Shown here piece by piece: positions 13,851-19,050 of a stretch of DNA of 64,000 bases. The position numbers and the translations under genes were made by a program. Source of the stretch: Desulfuromonadaceae bacterium (GTDB taxonomy: Bacteria > Desulfobacterota > Desulfuromonadia > Geobacterales > Pseudopelobacteraceae); NCBI GenBank assembly GCA_028681335.1, contig JAQUIT010000010.1:62001-126000 (forward strand), written 5' to 3'. The stretch's first letter is position 1; every line of letters begins with the position of its first letter. The notes under the pieces are model-generated. The model was given only the letters and a program-made list of their open reading frames with translations, searched no databases and was not told where the DNA came from.

Positions 13851-14699
13851 CTACCCTTTCCCCATCAGCCCCCGAATCGCCGCCGGCAGATCTGACGGCA
13901 AAATCACCAGCTTGGCATTTGGCGACGTCGCAATCTTTTGCAACGTATTTATGTAGCGATCACCCAGCAAGAAGACGGCCGGCAGATCATTATCCTTGAT
14001 CGCCTCACTGATATCGCCAATCGCCTTGGCAGACGCTTCAGCCAGCCGGATCTGAGCTTCCGCTTCGCGTTTTGCCGCCTCAAGCCTCCCCTCAGCTTCG
14101 CGGATGGTGGCTTCGCGCTTCCCTTCCGCTTCCAGTATGGTGGCCTGCTTGAAACGGTCGGCACTTGCCTGCTGCTCCATCGCCTTCTGCATCGATTCTG
14201 ACGGCTTGATGTCCTGGATTTCTACCGATTGTACATAGATGCCCCACGCGGCAACTTCCTTGGAGATGTTTTCCTGAAGGCGGGCCTTGATATGCTCCCT
14301 TTCAGAGAGGGCCCGGTTGAGGTCCATCTGGCCGATGATCGCCCTCAGCGACGTCATGACCAGGTTCTGGATAGCATATTCGTAGTTCTGGATTTCATAT
14401 ACGGCGCGGGTCGGGTCGGTAACCTTGATAAACGCAATCGCATTCGTGATAATGACGGCATTATCCTTTGTAATAACCTCCTGAGCGCCGATCGAGAGGA
14501 CATCACCCTTGGTCGAAACACGGTAGGCAACGATGTCAATATAGGGAAAAATGAAATTGAGACCCGGCTTGAGCGTGACATGGTATTTGCCAAGTCGCTC
14601 CACAACCCACTCCTGCCCCTGCGGAACTGTCTTTACCCCGGCAAACAGGGTTGCTGCCACCAGAACCAAAAGAACTACAAAAACAATAATACCCGGCAT
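13851..14699 (-). CDS. SPFH/band-7 (stomatin/slipin-like) membrane protein
   Basis: 282-residue stomatin-type protein. One N-terminal hairpin or transmembrane segment (about 2-22) is followed by the SPFH domain (about 25-190; PQGQEWVVERLGKYHVTLKPG, RVSTKGDVLSIGAQEVITKDN). A helical coiled-coil part then has repeated Glu/Ala/Arg-rich units (EAEGKREATIREAEGRLEAAKREAEA, about 200-230). Such proteins form large membrane microdomain cages, and bacterial homologues resemble QmcA. It lies 16 nt downstream of an NfeD-like gene, the classical bacterial pairing. The exact role is unknown. Confidence 0.9.
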   Translation of the reverse strand: MPGIIVFVVLLVLVAATLFAGVKTVPQGQEWVVERLGKYHVTLKPGLNFIFPYIDIVAYRVSTKGDVLSIGAQEVITKDNAVIITNAIAFIKVTDPTRAVYEIQNYEYAIQNLVMTSLRAIIGQMDLNRALSEREHIKARLQENISKEVAAWGIYVQSVEIQDIKPSESMQKAMEQQASADRFKQATILEAEGKREATIREAEGRLEAAKREAEAQIRLAEASAKAIGDISEAIKDNDLPAVFLLGDRYINTLQKIATSPNAKLVILPSDLPAAIRGLMGKG

Positions 14700-14715
14700 G
14701 TTTTTTCCCTCCCGC

Positions 14716-15162
14716 TTAGATTATTTCTACTTTGAGTATCTGCCCTTCAATATCAGCAACCCTGACCCGGTCACCGACATGGAGTATTTCACTGGAATAG
14801 CAACTCCACTCATCGGCGCCAAGAACTGAAATCCGGAACTTGACGATCCCCCGGCCATAGCTGTCTTCGGTACCACGGATAATGATGCCGGATTCTCCGA
14901 CAATTCCCTCTTTTGACATCCCGGCGTGCGTCCGGTCACCCTTGGGCTTCAGATATTTGAACCAGAGAAGCGTAAAAGCGACCGATGCGAATGACCAGAG
15001 CGCGACCTGCCCCGCGAGAGGAAAACCGGGCCACAAAAAACCCAACAGACCAACCAGCAGCGCCCCCATCCCGAACCAGATGATCGTGAACGAAGGGATA
15101 ACCAGCTCAAGCCCGATCAGACAAAAACCGGCAACAATCCAGTACCACCATTCAATCTGCAT
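14716..15162 (-). CDS. NfeD-like membrane protein
   Basis: 148 residues. Two to three membrane helices (about 5-70) precede a C-terminal OB-fold beta domain (about 85-148; GESGIIIRGTEDSYGRGIVKF ... HVGDRVRVADIEGQILKVE). It is the short NfeD form without a ClpP-type protease domain. It is co-transcribed with the downstream SPFH gene and probably acts as its membrane partner. Transcription starts in the 130-bp region shared with the divergent small gene at 15296. Confidence 0.85.
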   Translation of the reverse strand: MQIEWWYWIVAGFCLIGLELVIPSFTIIWFGMGALLVGLLGFLWPGFPLAGQVALWSFASVAFTLLWFKYLKPKGDRTHAGMSKEGIVGESGIIIRGTEDSYGRGIVKFRISVLGADEWSCYSSEILHVGDRVRVADIEGQILKVEII

Positions 15163-15513: not shown

Positions 15514-15546
15514 AACGTCCTGCTATTCATTGGCAGGACGTTTCTT
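15514..15546 (+). terminator. Intrinsic terminator after the YjfB-like gene
   Basis: A 10-bp stem (AACGTCCTGC/GCAGGACGTT) with a 9-nt loop, followed by TCTTTT. Confidence 0.85.
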
Positions 15547-15609: not shown

Positions 15610-15638
15610 TTGACAGGGCCGTGGCGCAGGGCTATAAA
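15610..15638 (+). promoter_or_regulatory. Strong sigma70 promoter of the Mg2+ transport operon
   Basis: TTGACA (15610-15615), a 17-bp spacer and TATAAA (15633-15638): a near-consensus promoter. Predicted initiation near 15645 places the M-box aptamer at the very 5' end of the transcript. Confidence 0.8.
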
Positions 15639-15649
15639 TTCTGGCTACA

Positions 15650-15808
15650 TATTCCTCGTTAGCATGAGGCGTTTGCACAAACAGATGCTACTACCCAGAA
15701 ACGTCGAAAGACGCCAATGTGGTCACCAGGTTTTGTCGGATTAAGGCTCAACCTAATGTAGCTGGAACTTTTCCTACGTTGTGCACTGCCGAAAGTCAAC
15801 CAGGGGGG
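15650..15808 (+). promoter_or_regulatory. M-box (ykoK leader) Mg2+ riboswitch
   Basis: The leader carries the conserved blocks of the M-box aptamer in order: GTTAG-ATGAGGC (about 15658-15670), CTACTACCCAGAAACGTCGA and AAGACGCCAATG (15690-15719), GGTCACCAGG, GTCGGATTAAGG, GTAGCTGGA, TCCTACG, and the closing TGCACTGCCGAAAGTCAACCAGG block (to about 15804). P1-type pairing is CCTCGTT with AACCAGG, and TGCAC pairs with GTGCA. In this class Mg2+ compacts the aptamer and turns expression off. The downstream genes are Mg-related, which fits. Confidence 0.92.
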
Positions 15809-15831
15809 AAATGTCTTGATTGCATCTTTGT

Positions 15832-15862
15832 AAAGACCCTTTCTTCCTGAATGGGTTTTTTT
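15832..15862 (+). terminator. Riboswitch expression-platform terminator
   Basis: AAAGACCC pairs with GGGTTTTT (one G-U pair) across a 13-nt loop and runs into T7. It sits about 30 nt after the aptamer and just before the start of the MgtE-like gene, as expected for a transcriptional OFF switch. A competing TCTTT/AAAGA pairing overlaps the left arm. Confidence 0.7.
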
Positions 15863-15883
15863 GTTTTAGTGAAGGCTTATATT

Positions 15884-17146
15884 ATGACGATTGAAATAAA
15901 CGAAATATACCTGAGCTCCGTTATTGGGCGCTCGGTAATCAACAGTAACGGCGATCAGATAGGAATTCTTCGTGACCTGATCATGGTTCCAGGCGAAGTA
16001 TTCCCGGAGGTTTCCCATATTGTTATTAAATCGCGTAAAGGGTTAAAGACGCTTCCCTGGGGCGATGTTACTCTCTTCACACATGTGGTTATTTCAACCG
16101 GCAGCATCAGACCAAACCGCCTGACCACATATCTGCCCGGAGAAGGAGATATCCTTGTCAAGCGCGACCTGCTGGACAAGCAGATTGTCGATGTCAACGG
16201 TGCCAAGGTTGTTCGTGTTAATGACATAAAGCTCGGCAAACTGAACCACAAGCTCTGCATCTTTTCGGTAGATATCGGTTTTCGCGGATTGCTCAGAAGA
16301 CTCGGCTATGTACGCTTTGGTGAGCGTTTTGCCCAGGCTATCAAGCGCGAGATTCCACACAGCGAGATCAGCTGGGAATACGTCCAGCCACTTGAAGCTC
16401 ATTCATCCAAACTGGCACTCAATATTGCCCGCAATCAAATGAACGAGATGCACCCTGCCGACCTCGCCGACATCATCGAAAACATCCCGATTCAGAACAT
16501 CCGTACGGTGCTGAACAGTATTGATGCCGAGACAACCGGCGATACCATTTACGAGCTTGAAGCGGATATGCGTAATGTGGTCATTAACCAACTTAATGAC
16601 GAACAGGTGTCCGATATTCTGGAAGAGATGGAACCGGATGAGGCGGCCGACGTTCTCTCCGATCTTCCTGAAGACAAGGCTCAGGGACTGCTGGAGATGA
16701 TGGACCAGGAAGATGCTGAAGACATTCAGGAGTTGTTGGAGCATGAGGAAGATTCTGCTGGCGGCTTGATGACCCCCGATTACTTCCGGCTTACCTCACA
16801 GATTTCAATCGGCCGGGCTCTTGAGCTTTTGAAAGAATGCGCAAATGATGTCGAGACCATCTATTACGGATATATTGTGGATGGAGAAGACCGACTTGAG
16901 GGGGTTGTCTCTCTCAAACAGCTCCTGATGAATCCTCCTGAAACTCATATCACGGATGTTATGGAAGAGAATATCAAGTTCGTGCATGTTGACTCCGAGC
17001 CGGAAGATATGCTCGAAACCCTGGCAAAATACGACCTGATTGCCGTCCCGGTTCTGGATTCTGATGACCGCATGGCGGGCATTGTTACGGTAGACGATGT
17101 TCTTGCCCATTATCTGCCGCAAATTATCAAGATTAAACGGCGCTAG
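15884..17146 (+). CDS. Cytosolic PRC-barrel / MgtE_N / CBS-pair protein (Mg2+ sensor-like)
   Basis: 420 residues with no transmembrane helix. Order: PRC-barrel-like beta units (about 1-80 and 85-165; SSVIGRSVINSNGDQIG, KQIVDVNGAKVVRVNDI), an MgtE N-terminal superhelical domain (about 195-300; HPADLADIIE, MEPDEAADVLSDLPEDKAQG), and a CBS pair (about 300-415; GGLMTPDYF ... ITDVMEENIKFVHVDSEPEDM). In true MgtE channels the acidic N and CBS domains sense cytosolic Mg2+ and gate the pore; here the channel domain is absent. I chose ATG 15884, because an earlier in-frame ATG lies inside the terminator hairpin. The Nramp-type transporter starts 4 nt after its stop, so it is probably a regulatory partner (inference). 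Confidence 0.85.
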   Translation: MTIEINEIYLSSVIGRSVINSNGDQIGILRDLIMVPGEVFPEVSHIVIKSRKGLKTLPWGDVTLFTHVVISTGSIRPNRLTTYLPGEGDILVKRDLLDKQIVDVNGAKVVRVNDIKLGKLNHKLCIFSVDIGFRGLLRRLGYVRFGERFAQAIKREIPHSEISWEYVQPLEAHSSKLALNIARNQMNEMHPADLADIIENIPIQNIRTVLNSIDAETTGDTIYELEADMRNVVINQLNDEQVSDILEEMEPDEAADVLSDLPEDKAQGLLEMMDQEDAEDIQELLEHEEDSAGGLMTPDYFRLTSQISIGRALELLKECANDVETIYYGYIVDGEDRLEGVVSLKQLLMNPPETHITDVMEENIKFVHVDSEPEDMLETLAKYDLIAVPVLDSDDRMAGIVTVDDVLAHYLPQIIKIKRR

Positions 17147-17149
17147 AAT

Positions 17150-18448
17150 ATGTTCCACAGCCTCTCACAATTCAGATTCCTGAAACCGCTGAAAAGCTTC
17201 AGCCCGCGCAACGTGATGATTTTCCTGGCCATCCTTGGCCCCGGCATTATCACAGCAAACGTGGACAACGACGCCGGCGGTATCGCAACCTATTCTCTGG
17301 CTGGCGCTCACTACGGCCTGACGTTGCTCTGGACCATGATTCCGACAATGATTGCACTTGTGGTCATTCAGGAGATGTGCGCCAGAATGGGTGCCATCAC
17401 CGGCAAAGGGCTCTCCGACCTGATCCGCGAATCTTTCGGCGTCAAGGTAACTTTTTACGTTATGATAGCCCTGCTTCTTACCAATATGGGCAACTCCATT
17501 TCAGAATTTGCCGGCATAGCCGCCAGTCTTGAGATTTTCGGTATCAGCAAATACCTTTCCGTACCGGTCTCTGCGGTCCTTGTCTGGCTGCTGATAGTAA
17601 AAGGGTCGTACAAGGTGGTGGAAAAGGTTTTTCTGGTGGCCTGCCTGGTCTATGTAGCCTACCCGATTGCAGCCTTCATGGCCGGACCAAAGTGGGACAT
17701 TGTTCTCAAGGCAACGGTAACCCCCACGTTCCAATCCGACAGCGGCTTCCTGATGACAATGATCGGCCTCGTCGGTACGACGATCGCGCCATGGATGCAG
17801 TTCTACCAGCAATCTGCCGTCGTTGAGAAAGGTATTACCGCCGATCAGTACAACTTCACCCGACTGGATGTCATCATCGGCTGTATCATGGCCATTACGG
17901 TCGCCTTCTTCATTGTGGTGGCCTGTGCAGTTACCATCCATCCGCTGGGCCTGAAAATTGAAACTGCCGCCGACGCTGCTACAGCGCTTAAACCGCTAGT
18001 CGGCAGACATGCATCGGCACTGTTCGCCTTCGGACTTTTTAACGCCTCTCTCTTTGCCGCCTGTATCCTGCCGCTTTCAACCGCCTATTACATCTGCGAA
18101 GGATTGGGATGGGAATCCGGAGTTGACAAGAATTTTGAGCAGGCGCCGCAGTTTTTCTGGCTCTTTACAATCATCATTGCCATCAGTGCCGGGCTGATTC
18201 TGATCCCGAATGCTCCGTTGATGACGATCATGTTCATTTCACAGGTAGTTAACGGTGCCGTCCTCCCCTTCGTACTGATCTTCATGCTCAAGCTGATCAA
18301 TGACAAAAACCTGATGGGGGCCTACACCAACGGTCTCTCATTTAATTTCATCGCCTGGCTCACCGTGGTAATCATGATAACCCTGACATTCATTATGACC
18401 GTTGACATGGCTATTCCTGGTCTGCTCAAACGGCTGATGATTTTTTAA
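17150..18448 (+). CDS. Nramp-related Mg2+ transporter (NRMT type)
   Basis: 432-residue Nramp-fold (LeuT-fold) transporter with about 11 membrane helices. The TM1 motif, DPGN in Mn/Fe transporters, is DAGG here (Asp41-Ala42-Gly43-Gly44). The TM6 MPHN motif is replaced by APWM (Ala213-Pro-Trp-Met216). Loss of the soft-metal ligand Met and of the Asn is the hallmark of Nramp-related magnesium transporters, which admit hydrated Mg2+. The M-box riboswitch upstream independently supports Mg2+. It should not be called MntH. It is coupled to the MgtE-like sensor gene and followed by a strong terminator. Confidence 0.87.
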   Translation: MFHSLSQFRFLKPLKSFSPRNVMIFLAILGPGIITANVDNDAGGIATYSLAGAHYGLTLLWTMIPTMIALVVIQEMCARMGAITGKGLSDLIRESFGVKVTFYVMIALLLTNMGNSISEFAGIAASLEIFGISKYLSVPVSAVLVWLLIVKGSYKVVEKVFLVACLVYVAYPIAAFMAGPKWDIVLKATVTPTFQSDSGFLMTMIGLVGTTIAPWMQFYQQSAVVEKGITADQYNFTRLDVIIGCIMAITVAFFIVVACAVTIHPLGLKIETAADAATALKPLVGRHASALFAFGLFNASLFAACILPLSTAYYICEGLGWESGVDKNFEQAPQFFWLFTIIIAISAGLILIPNAPLMTIMFISQVVNGAVLPFVLIFMLKLINDKNLMGAYTNGLSFNFIAWLTVVIMITLTFIMTVDMAIPGLLKRLMIF

Positions 18449-18466: not shown

Positions 18467-18515
18467 TGAACGTAAAGAGGCCCGGCGGTAATTGCGCCGG
18501 GCCTCTTTACGTTCA
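18467..18515. terminator. 21-bp perfect stem, bidirectional terminator
   Basis: A 21-bp uninterrupted inverted repeat (18467-18487 with 18495-18515, 7-nt loop) containing CCCGGCG lies between the convergent transporter and DUF4124 genes. CTCTTTACG on each side supplies only a weak T-rich end. Confidence 0.85.
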
Positions 18516-18522
18516 TTTCGAA

Positions 18523-19050
18523 CTAATCTTTATTTTTTATATCCACCTGAATTCCGGCTTTCCGAATGGTCTCAATCAGCTCGGTGTATTCCTTGTACTT
18601 TTGGTTGTAGGCGACCCTGCTATCTTCATACTCTTTTTTCAATTCGCCTAACTGCTCCCGAGAGATCTCTTTCGTATCATAGATCTGCCTACGCACCTGT
18701 TCCATATGCTGCTCGATACCTTTTAGCTCCGCTTCCAGAGCATCAAGCTCCTTACGCCAATCATCGCGGCTCTTACCGCCATACAGTCCCTTATCAGTTC
18801 CTTGCGTTACGGCAGGCTTTGTTTCCGTTTTTCCTGTCGTACCGGACGTGTTCTCGGAATCAGGGGACACACTCGGCACCTCCTGCTGAATATCCTCACG
18901 CCGTCTTACTTTCTTTCGATATTTTCTGGGAACGCTCGAATAATCTTCGGTGAAGTTGTACGTACCACTATCGTCAACCCATGAATAGGTTTCTGCATAG
19001 AGGGGTGCCGCCAGCAACAGAATGAATCCCAAACAGACGTATGATTTCAT
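18523..19050 (-). CDS. Exported DUF4124-type coiled-coil protein
   Basis: 175 residues. A cleavable signal peptide (about 1-19, ending APLYA) is followed by a DUF4124-like beta segment (ETYSWVDDSGTYNFTEDY). A long, highly charged helical region then runs from about 100 to 170 (ELDALEAELKGIEQHMEQVR), predicted coiled coil. The middle is Ser/Thr-rich and likely disordered. Periplasmic; function unknown. It lies just downstream of the HIT gene on the same strand, and the terminator shared with the Mg2+ operon closes it. Confidence 0.75.
   Translation of the reverse strand: MKSYVCLGFILLLAAPLYAETYSWVDDSGTYNFTEDYSSVPRKYRKKVRRREDIQQEVPSVSPDSENTSGTTGKTETKPAVTQGTDKGLYGGKSRDDWRKELDALEAELKGIEQHMEQVRRQIYDTKEISREQLGELKKEYEDSRVAYNQKYKEYTELIETIRKAGIQVDIKNKD

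Follow-up and report, generated by a model that had tools for sequence, protein, structure and literature searches.

Can the Mg2+-sensing half of one transporter family serve as a free-standing regulator of a transporter with an unrelated fold? The question is raised by an operon at 15610-18448 on the + strand of a 64,000-nucleotide (nt) stretch of a Desulfuromonadaceae genome (GCA_028681335.1, contig JAQUIT010000010.1, 62,001 to 126,000; hereafter the window), in which a promoter-like element, an M-box and a terminator are followed by the gene of a soluble protein resembling the cytosolic half of MgtE (hereafter the sensor) and then by the gene of an Nramp-related transporter of the NRMT type. 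From comparison of the sequences, we think it rather probable that this is a Mg2+ uptake operon under two layers of Mg2+ control, in which the sensor would be a separable gate of the NRMT permease and the pair would replace MgtE. A preliminary description of this DNA had put forward the two-layer idea, which is a reasonable one.

The same description was not aware of any earlier account of such a pair, but there is one. Shin et al. (2014; PMC4072509) detected M-boxes ahead of genes related to Nramp, gave the encoded transporters the name NrmT and found most such genes to adjoin a MgtE N-terminal-like gene (here and below, statements on cited papers concern the portions of their text available to us). 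They speculated on cytoplasmic feedback regulation by the MgtE-like fragment. Their operons, such as Ca_c0685 of Clostridium acetobutylicum, share with the window the M-box, the MgtE N-terminal-like cytosolic protein, the Nramp-related transporter and the regulatory proposal, and the characteristic arrangement is present here, a MgtE cytosolic-domain gene adjoining the NRMT gene behind an M-box. In Ca_c0685 the sensor is split, whereas that of the window is one 420-amino-acid PRC-MgtE_N-CBS protein. The operon belongs to an already described kind, and what is new is the comparative evidence rather than the existence of the pair: the co-occurrence counts, the exclusion of MgtE, the analysis of Mg sites and plug helix, and the module exchange go beyond the available portions of the 2014 paper. 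A search of titles and abstracts, with most subscription journals outside its coverage, found no later work on the function of the MgtE-like fragment.

Pairing of the sensor with NRMT and the distribution of MgtE

Among 148 genomes of the window's phylum, high-scoring sensors and NRMTs are carried by the same 36, which span 14 families (Fisher p 3e-35, uncorrected for ancestry; our P-values ignore shared descent throughout). Cut-offs were set at gaps in the score lists, at 333 bits or more for the sensor (next score 205) and 358 or more for the NRMT (next 209), the value of 358 coming from an NRMT gene of G148 that is truncated at the end of its contig; three of the 36 sensors are also cut by contig ends (G138, G150, G171). 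The pattern recurs in a second phylum, that of Acididesulfobacillus acetoxydans (G029), which we take to be the Bacillota. With cut-offs of 316 bits for the sensor (next 233) and 423 for the NRMT (next 350), a strong NRMT was found in 18 of 199 genomes, 17 of which hold a full sensor; the eighteenth (G300) has a 279-amino-acid MgtE_N-CBS frame, the match ending 80 bp before the NRMT. No full sensor without an NRMT was found among the 347 genomes (148 + 199), an absence that is not absolute, since the sensor candidates scored at first look numbered at most 11 per genome in the first phylum and at most eight in the second. At an NRMT cut of 250 bits, G329 and G377 would count as genomes with an NRMT-like gene but no sensor. 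The genome-wide pairing of the two families, raised by the preliminary description, is strict in both phyla.

Gene order in the 36 genomes is sensor first on the same strand in 27 and convergent in four, and in the remaining five the genes lie on different contigs, where contig breaks are possible. When the window's genome and its relatives are taken together, the sensor is present in 22 of 29 genomes and an NRMT gene adjoins the sensor in all 28 full-sensor loci fetched, the transporter coming first in two. A sensor-family match lay within the fetched DNA at 66 of the best 80 of 582 NRMT loci from named genomes; a follow-up of 12 of the 14 remaining genomes, together with that of L108, where a gene intervenes, found a sensor in 13 of 13, two loci cut at the transporter (L041, L042) being left out. 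Nine of these 13 sensors lie away from any strong NRMT, one is a single gene away, one stands beside a second NRMT and two are at contig breaks. In A. acetoxydans, for example, the unlinked genes are found at 2.09 and 1.16 Mb on C1. The bond between sensor and NRMT outlives the loss of gene linkage. Where the genes do adjoin, overlaps of 4 nt occur in 11 of the 82 loci measured. The mirror-tree correlation across 89 genomes was r 0.85, and 0.80 for the nine with unlinked genes, the best of 1000 permutations reaching 0.12; this correlation mostly reflects shared descent. An NRMT-sensor pair was also seen in a metagenome-assembled genome (MAG) titled Bifidobacterium breve (L069), its sensor grouping with those of Acidobacteriota; the record is probably mislabelled or a mixed bin.

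The MgtE membrane domain (PF01769) scored over its cut-off in 3 of the 36 pair genomes against 86 of the other 112 in the window's phylum, and in 1 of the 18 NRMT genomes against 125 of the other 181 in the second, so that over both phyla it is present in 4 of 54 genomes with NRMT and in 211 of the remaining 293 (matches below the cut-off, in G135 of the first phylum and in two genomes of the second, are uncounted). The genome of the window organism gave no PF01769 match; CorA and MgtA were not searched for there. Because the MgtE membrane domain is so scarce in pair genomes, the pair seems to replace MgtE, and as pair genomes and MgtE genomes occur side by side in four families (f8, f17, f31, f41), the exclusion is probably not the product of one old split.

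These distributions also bear on a different role for the sensor, namely that it acts elsewhere, as a gauge or buffer of cytosolic Mg2+ or with a PRC partner, in ribosome assembly for example, and is merely co-regulated with NRMT. The PRC domain occurs in RimM. Such a role would suit the unlinked genes of some genomes, the extra sensor copies in G327 (three full sensors, two strong NRMTs) and G189 (two and one), the ability of NRMT to complement without the sensor (see below) and the fact that a sensor-NRMT contact remains predicted. However, a free gauge should serve MgtE or CorA as well, and yet the full sensor was not met apart from NRMT in the genomes searched; in addition, the same module is found covalently joined to MgtE, as described in the following section, which favours a regulatory role. 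We regard a free gauge as an unlikely, though not far-fetched, explanation.

The sensor module and its counterpart in long-form MgtE

The sensor gene (15884-17146, +) has its usable start at ATG 15884, since the longer open reading frame (ORF) from 15851 would open inside the terminator, and its 420 codons encode a PRC domain, a middle region, MgtE_N, a CBS pair and a short basic tail. All three Pfam domains named in the preliminary description were matched, PRC at residues 6-37 (28.9 bits, cut-off 21.2), MgtE_N at 189-290 (E 2e-25) and CBS (E 2.2e-14), and the protein has no Pfam match to the membrane domain PF01769. Another MgtE_N match in the genome, in a 434-amino-acid frame, is partial (positions 2-52; 31 bits against a cut-off of 25.9). 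An internal duplication within the PRC region was considered and rejected, residues 1-83 and 85-173 giving no alignment.

Residues 182-407 align to the cytosolic domain of Thermus thermophilus MgtE (TtMgtE; 2yvy, E 1e-37), and the likeness to that protein (2yvx/2yvy; PMC5882242, PMC5529423, from which the Mg-site residues were taken) covers MgtE_N, CBS and the acids of sites Mg4, Mg6 and Mg7. MgtE_N (16448-16753, +) carries D220 (TtMgtE E59, Mg7), D252 (D91, Mg4) and D256 (D95, Mg6), and the second CBS repeat (16952-17110, +) carries D384 (D226, Mg5) and D405 (D247, Mg4); in the latter repeat F227, which stacks on adenine in TtMgtE, has become L385, and D250 has become A408. As regards a co-sensing of ATP such as MgtE shows, neither F227 nor N203 is kept, and both positions also vary among the 20 MgtEs of the window's phylum with which we compared 95 distinct sensors (spanning model positions from below 40 to beyond 415). 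In all 95 the Mg6 position D95 is Asp; for Mg4, D91 is kept in 77 and D247 in 79, and the E59 position of Mg7 is acidic in 81. The 25 sensors with an M-box at their locus have D91, D95 and D247 without exception, and an acid at E59 in 24 cases.

Past TtMgtE position 249 the MgtEs run into the acidic plug helix, whose net charge averages -3.9 over 18 residues, whereas the sensors stop after a median of 13 residues in a basic tail (+2.5). The window sensor has 13 residues there, with K and I in the places of E258 and D259, and among the 95 sensors 60 have Lys or Arg at position 258, which is missing in 23. Compared with TtMgtE, the window sensor is a separate chain with an extra N-terminal PRC region and with neither membrane domain nor acidic plug helix. 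A second, divergent class of sensors, about 30% identical to that of the window and with the transporter gene first, was seen at L029, L030 and L117 and is the extra copy in G015 and G024.

A fuller counterpart is found in long-form MgtE. When both frames were searched as one chain, 76 of the 120 proteins listed, out of 631 matches, carry, after MgtE_N and CBS, the membrane domain of MgtE, and 74 of these 76 also have PRC (hand count). Most of these proteins measure 590-655 amino acids; the cytosolic part runs colinear with the sensor, and at the junction a plug helix is again present. Proteins such as P0262, P0263 and P0272 possess the whole PRC-MgtE_N-CBS half, which is 39-43% identical to the window sensor for eight nested rows of the tree described below, but unlike the sensor they are fused to the plug helix and the MgtE channel domain. 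The preliminary description spoke of a detached MgtE sensor; its anatomy agrees with this, with the refinement that the counterpart is the PRC-bearing long form and that the acidic plug helix lies outside the sensor.

In a careful tree built from 67 cytosolic halves (those of 39 sensors, 18 long and 10 short MgtEs), eight long MgtEs fall inside the soluble sensors, within a 16-row group of eight long MgtEs and eight sensors (support 100/100), and the grouping of all sensors in one clade is rejected (p-AU 0.0002, the approximately unbiased (AU) test having been run after a quick tree was inspected). That quick tree, of 75 rows (37 of the 95 sensors, 18 of the 22 long MgtEs fetched and 20 short MgtEs), agrees with the nesting; for the careful tree the long-branch sensors L046, L051 and L081 were dropped, five sensors were added and 10 of the 20 short MgtEs were kept. 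Two of the eight nested long MgtEs are named, as Dissulfurispira and Thermodesulfovibrionales, both of them Nitrospirota, and several neighbouring sensors come from Nitrospirae-titled records. The module appears to have changed partner at least twice, whether by re-fusion to MgtE or by repeated detachment. The wider proposal, that PRC-MgtE_N-CBS is an exchangeable Mg2+ gate, acting in cis on MgtE and in trans on the unrelated NRMT, with at least two changes of partner and with the plug helix as part of the MgtE membrane half, is in our judgement evenly balanced between true and false.

Natural fusions of sensor and NRMT were also considered as a Rosetta-stone proof, and the seven candidates read by eye were not used as evidence. 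Four frames (P0254, P0264, P0283, P0303) have arginine-rich stretches which look out of frame and are probable errors, P0250 joins the genes at a shared AGG motif and looks like an error, and P0242 and P0256 have cleaner junctions, yet are single records with the N-terminus cut.

The transporter and its riboswitch leader

The transporter gene (17150-18448, +; 432 amino acids) follows the sensor stop after 3 nt (17147-17149, +; read from the sequence). The preliminary description gave this gap as 4 nt; its assignment of the product to the Nramp fold stands (PF01566, E 4.9e-101). The nearest solved structure is EleNRMT (7qia, E 2.2e-126; Ramanadane et al., 2022; PMC8806188), with which the protein shares its transporter family and binding-site residues, D41, G44, E119, T210, A213, W215 and Q365 aligning to EleNRMT D55, G58, E133, T224, A227, W229 and Q379 with seven of seven identical. 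The metal-site signature is DxxG-TxxA/T (D41-A-G-G44, T210-T-I-A213) and not DxxN-A/CxxM, and both proton-pathway histidines of helix 6b are lost, with W215 and Q220 at EleNRMT W229 and N234; for EleNRMT, Mg2+ transport without proton coupling was reported (PMC8806188). By these residues the transporter is of the NRMT type and a putative Mg2+ carrier. The MgtE-related text of the EleNRMT paper mentions no accessory sensor protein, whereas the window transporter has one beside it.

It could be argued that the main substrate of the transporter is Mn2+ or some other divalent ion, as in the case of the Acidobacterium capsulatum protein, which seemed to prefer Mn2+ and rescued Mn2+ uptake (Shin et al., 2014). 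Acidobacterial loci share the DNDAGG half of the motif, and yet the A. capsulatum protein behaved in this way, so the motif may not suffice. However, an M-box, proposed as a mark of Mg2+ specificity in the same paper, stands directly upstream; the genome's other full Nramp is a separate, canonical MntH with DPGN and MPHN, and no MgtE channel domain was found in this genome (CorA and MgtA being outside that search). A principal role in Mn2+ transport appears highly improbable to us.

The leader begins with a promoter-like element read from the sequence (+ strand), -35 TTGACA at 15610-15615 and -10 TATAAA at 15633-15638 with a 17-nt spacer; a consensus promoter scanner made no call at 15610-15638, since its pattern requires T as the final base of the -10 box. 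The M-box (ykoK leader) aptamer at 15648-15814 (+) matches RF00380 over the full model (1-169 of 169) with 138.8 bits, where the gathering threshold is 44 (E 3.3e-31), and is the sole match in the 4.0-Mb genome. It is followed by an intrinsic terminator, the expression platform, with a hairpin and U-rich tail at 15832-15860 (+; computed, -10.9 kcal/mol). The near-consensus promoter, aptamer and terminator of the preliminary description are all present.

Seventeen of 30 M-box leaders were compared, namely that of the window, all 14 from relatives' loci and two of the 15 others. By eye, TTGACA and a TATA-like box stand at the matching place in 11 of the 16 leaders other than the window's, and were not seen in five (L005, L009, L011, L012, L037). 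Each of the 17 has a U-tailed hairpin beginning 15-19 nt past the aptamer, and in each the best duplex between the P1 3' strand and downstream sequence overlaps that hairpin. In the window the proposed antiterminator (15795-15855, +) would pair the P1 3' strand (within 15795-15814) with 15839-15855 of the terminator, excluding both P1 and the terminator, at -13.8 kcal/mol, a value matched by 50 of 200 shuffles; taken singly, such duplexes mostly barely beat composition shuffles. We propose it because the register recurs across leaders and the mechanism of M-boxes is known. The comparison argues strongly for the usual OFF design, in which Mg2+-bound P1 would leave the terminator free.

M-boxes are rarer than the sensor-NRMT pairing, being found at 15 of the best 80 of the 582 NRMT loci from named genomes and at 14 of 20 loci of relatives. 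In Pelotomaculum sp. (L070:348-4224) an M-box, CorA (PF01544, 237.6 bits), a PRC-MgtE_N-CBS sensor and NRMT lie on one strand. At two Peptococcaceae-type loci (L068, L074) the M-box immediately precedes NRMT; the gene of the full sensor is found elsewhere, upstream of a gene that is phosphofructokinase-like by sequence. Four Smithella/Syntrophaceae/'Deltaproteobacteria' loci (L053, L055, L082, L087) carry, a short way upstream of the sensor gene and on the opposite strand to it, PyrR-binding-site matches (RF00515, 54.5-62.9 bits, threshold 54).

On the left of the operon, a terminator-like hairpin at 15514-15542, upstream of the M-box promoter, probably ends the gene on that side, and two adjoining ORFs (13851-15162, -) presumably encode proteins resembling the SPFH/stomatin and NfeD-like types. 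On the right, a perfect 20-bp inverted repeat with a 7-nt loop (18468-18514) lies between the transporter gene and a convergent ORF (18523-19050); it is probably a terminator shared by the two, although a scanner gave it no flag.

Proposed gating in trans and its place in Mg2+ homeostasis

The two layers of control would work as follows. In the first, for which homology argues strongly, plentiful Mg2+ makes the M-box fold, the terminator is freed and transcription stops; when Mg2+ is scarce the P1 strand pairs with part of the terminator region, and transcription of the operon goes ahead. In the second layer NRMT would serve as permease and the sensor as a gate separable from it. The sensor, corresponding to a long-form MgtE without its membrane domain and plug helix, would bind Mg2+ at the acidic sites of the N-domain and CBS pair and compact. 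The Mg2+-loaded dimer would restrain NRMT at its cytosolic face, perhaps touching the transporter with its basic tail or with the faces of the N and CBS domains, and import would slow as cytosolic Mg2+ rises, so that sensor and NRMT would jointly stand in for MgtE. Action in trans, as the preliminary description had it, is favoured by the strict co-occurrence, the exclusion of MgtE and the module exchange, which make this still hypothetical mechanism more likely than before.

Strict co-occurrence would also be expected of a positive partner, that is, an assembly factor, chaperone or metal donor required for the full activity or stability of NRMT, and not an inhibitor. The sensor-first order in 27 of 36 genomes and the 4-nt overlaps in 11 of 82 loci are typical of subunits, and Shin et al. 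(2014) themselves mention a metal-chaperone alternative. Against this, two C. acetobutylicum transporters complemented without the fragment, which speaks against a strictly needed subunit, and co-expression of the fragment gave no further rescue with the A. capsulatum transporter (Shin et al., 2014). We judge a positive partner to be improbable.

Several points weigh against the gated permease as well, and the reading should be considered with them in mind. The complementation and co-expression results just cited are among them; the rescue assay of 2014 could not have revealed an inhibitory sensor. So too are the shared ancestry and the limited candidate numbers behind the counts, and the surplus of sensors in two genomes. 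Site Mg5 is poorly kept, with D226 in 21 of the 95 sensors and Asn in 46. Fourteen sensors with no M-box at the scanned locus have D91S paired with D247N or S; the M-box scan took in 20 of the 27 sensor loci L004-L030, so that the group without an M-box includes unscanned loci and at least one member that has one (L021, on the same contig as L043). Of the 20 MgtEs, 19 have acids at both plug-helix positions, E258 and D259, whereas none of the 95 sensors does, which removes the Mg2/Mg3 acids, and with the plug helix lost the sensor cannot act as it does in MgtE. F227 of the ATP site is Leu in the window sensor, although Leu is also found in 12 of the 20 MgtEs. The MAG frames joining MgtE_N and Nramp look mostly erroneous, and contact between sensor and NRMT, like gating itself, is a prediction.

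The work of 2014 did not settle what the fragment does; the pairing, the exclusion of MgtE and the existence of fused long MgtEs now pose a direct question, as to whether one Mg2+-sensing module gates two unrelated permeases. If this is true, feedback gating would be a transferable part of Mg2+ homeostasis, and the gating of Nramp-fold carriers could be studied by a simple route.

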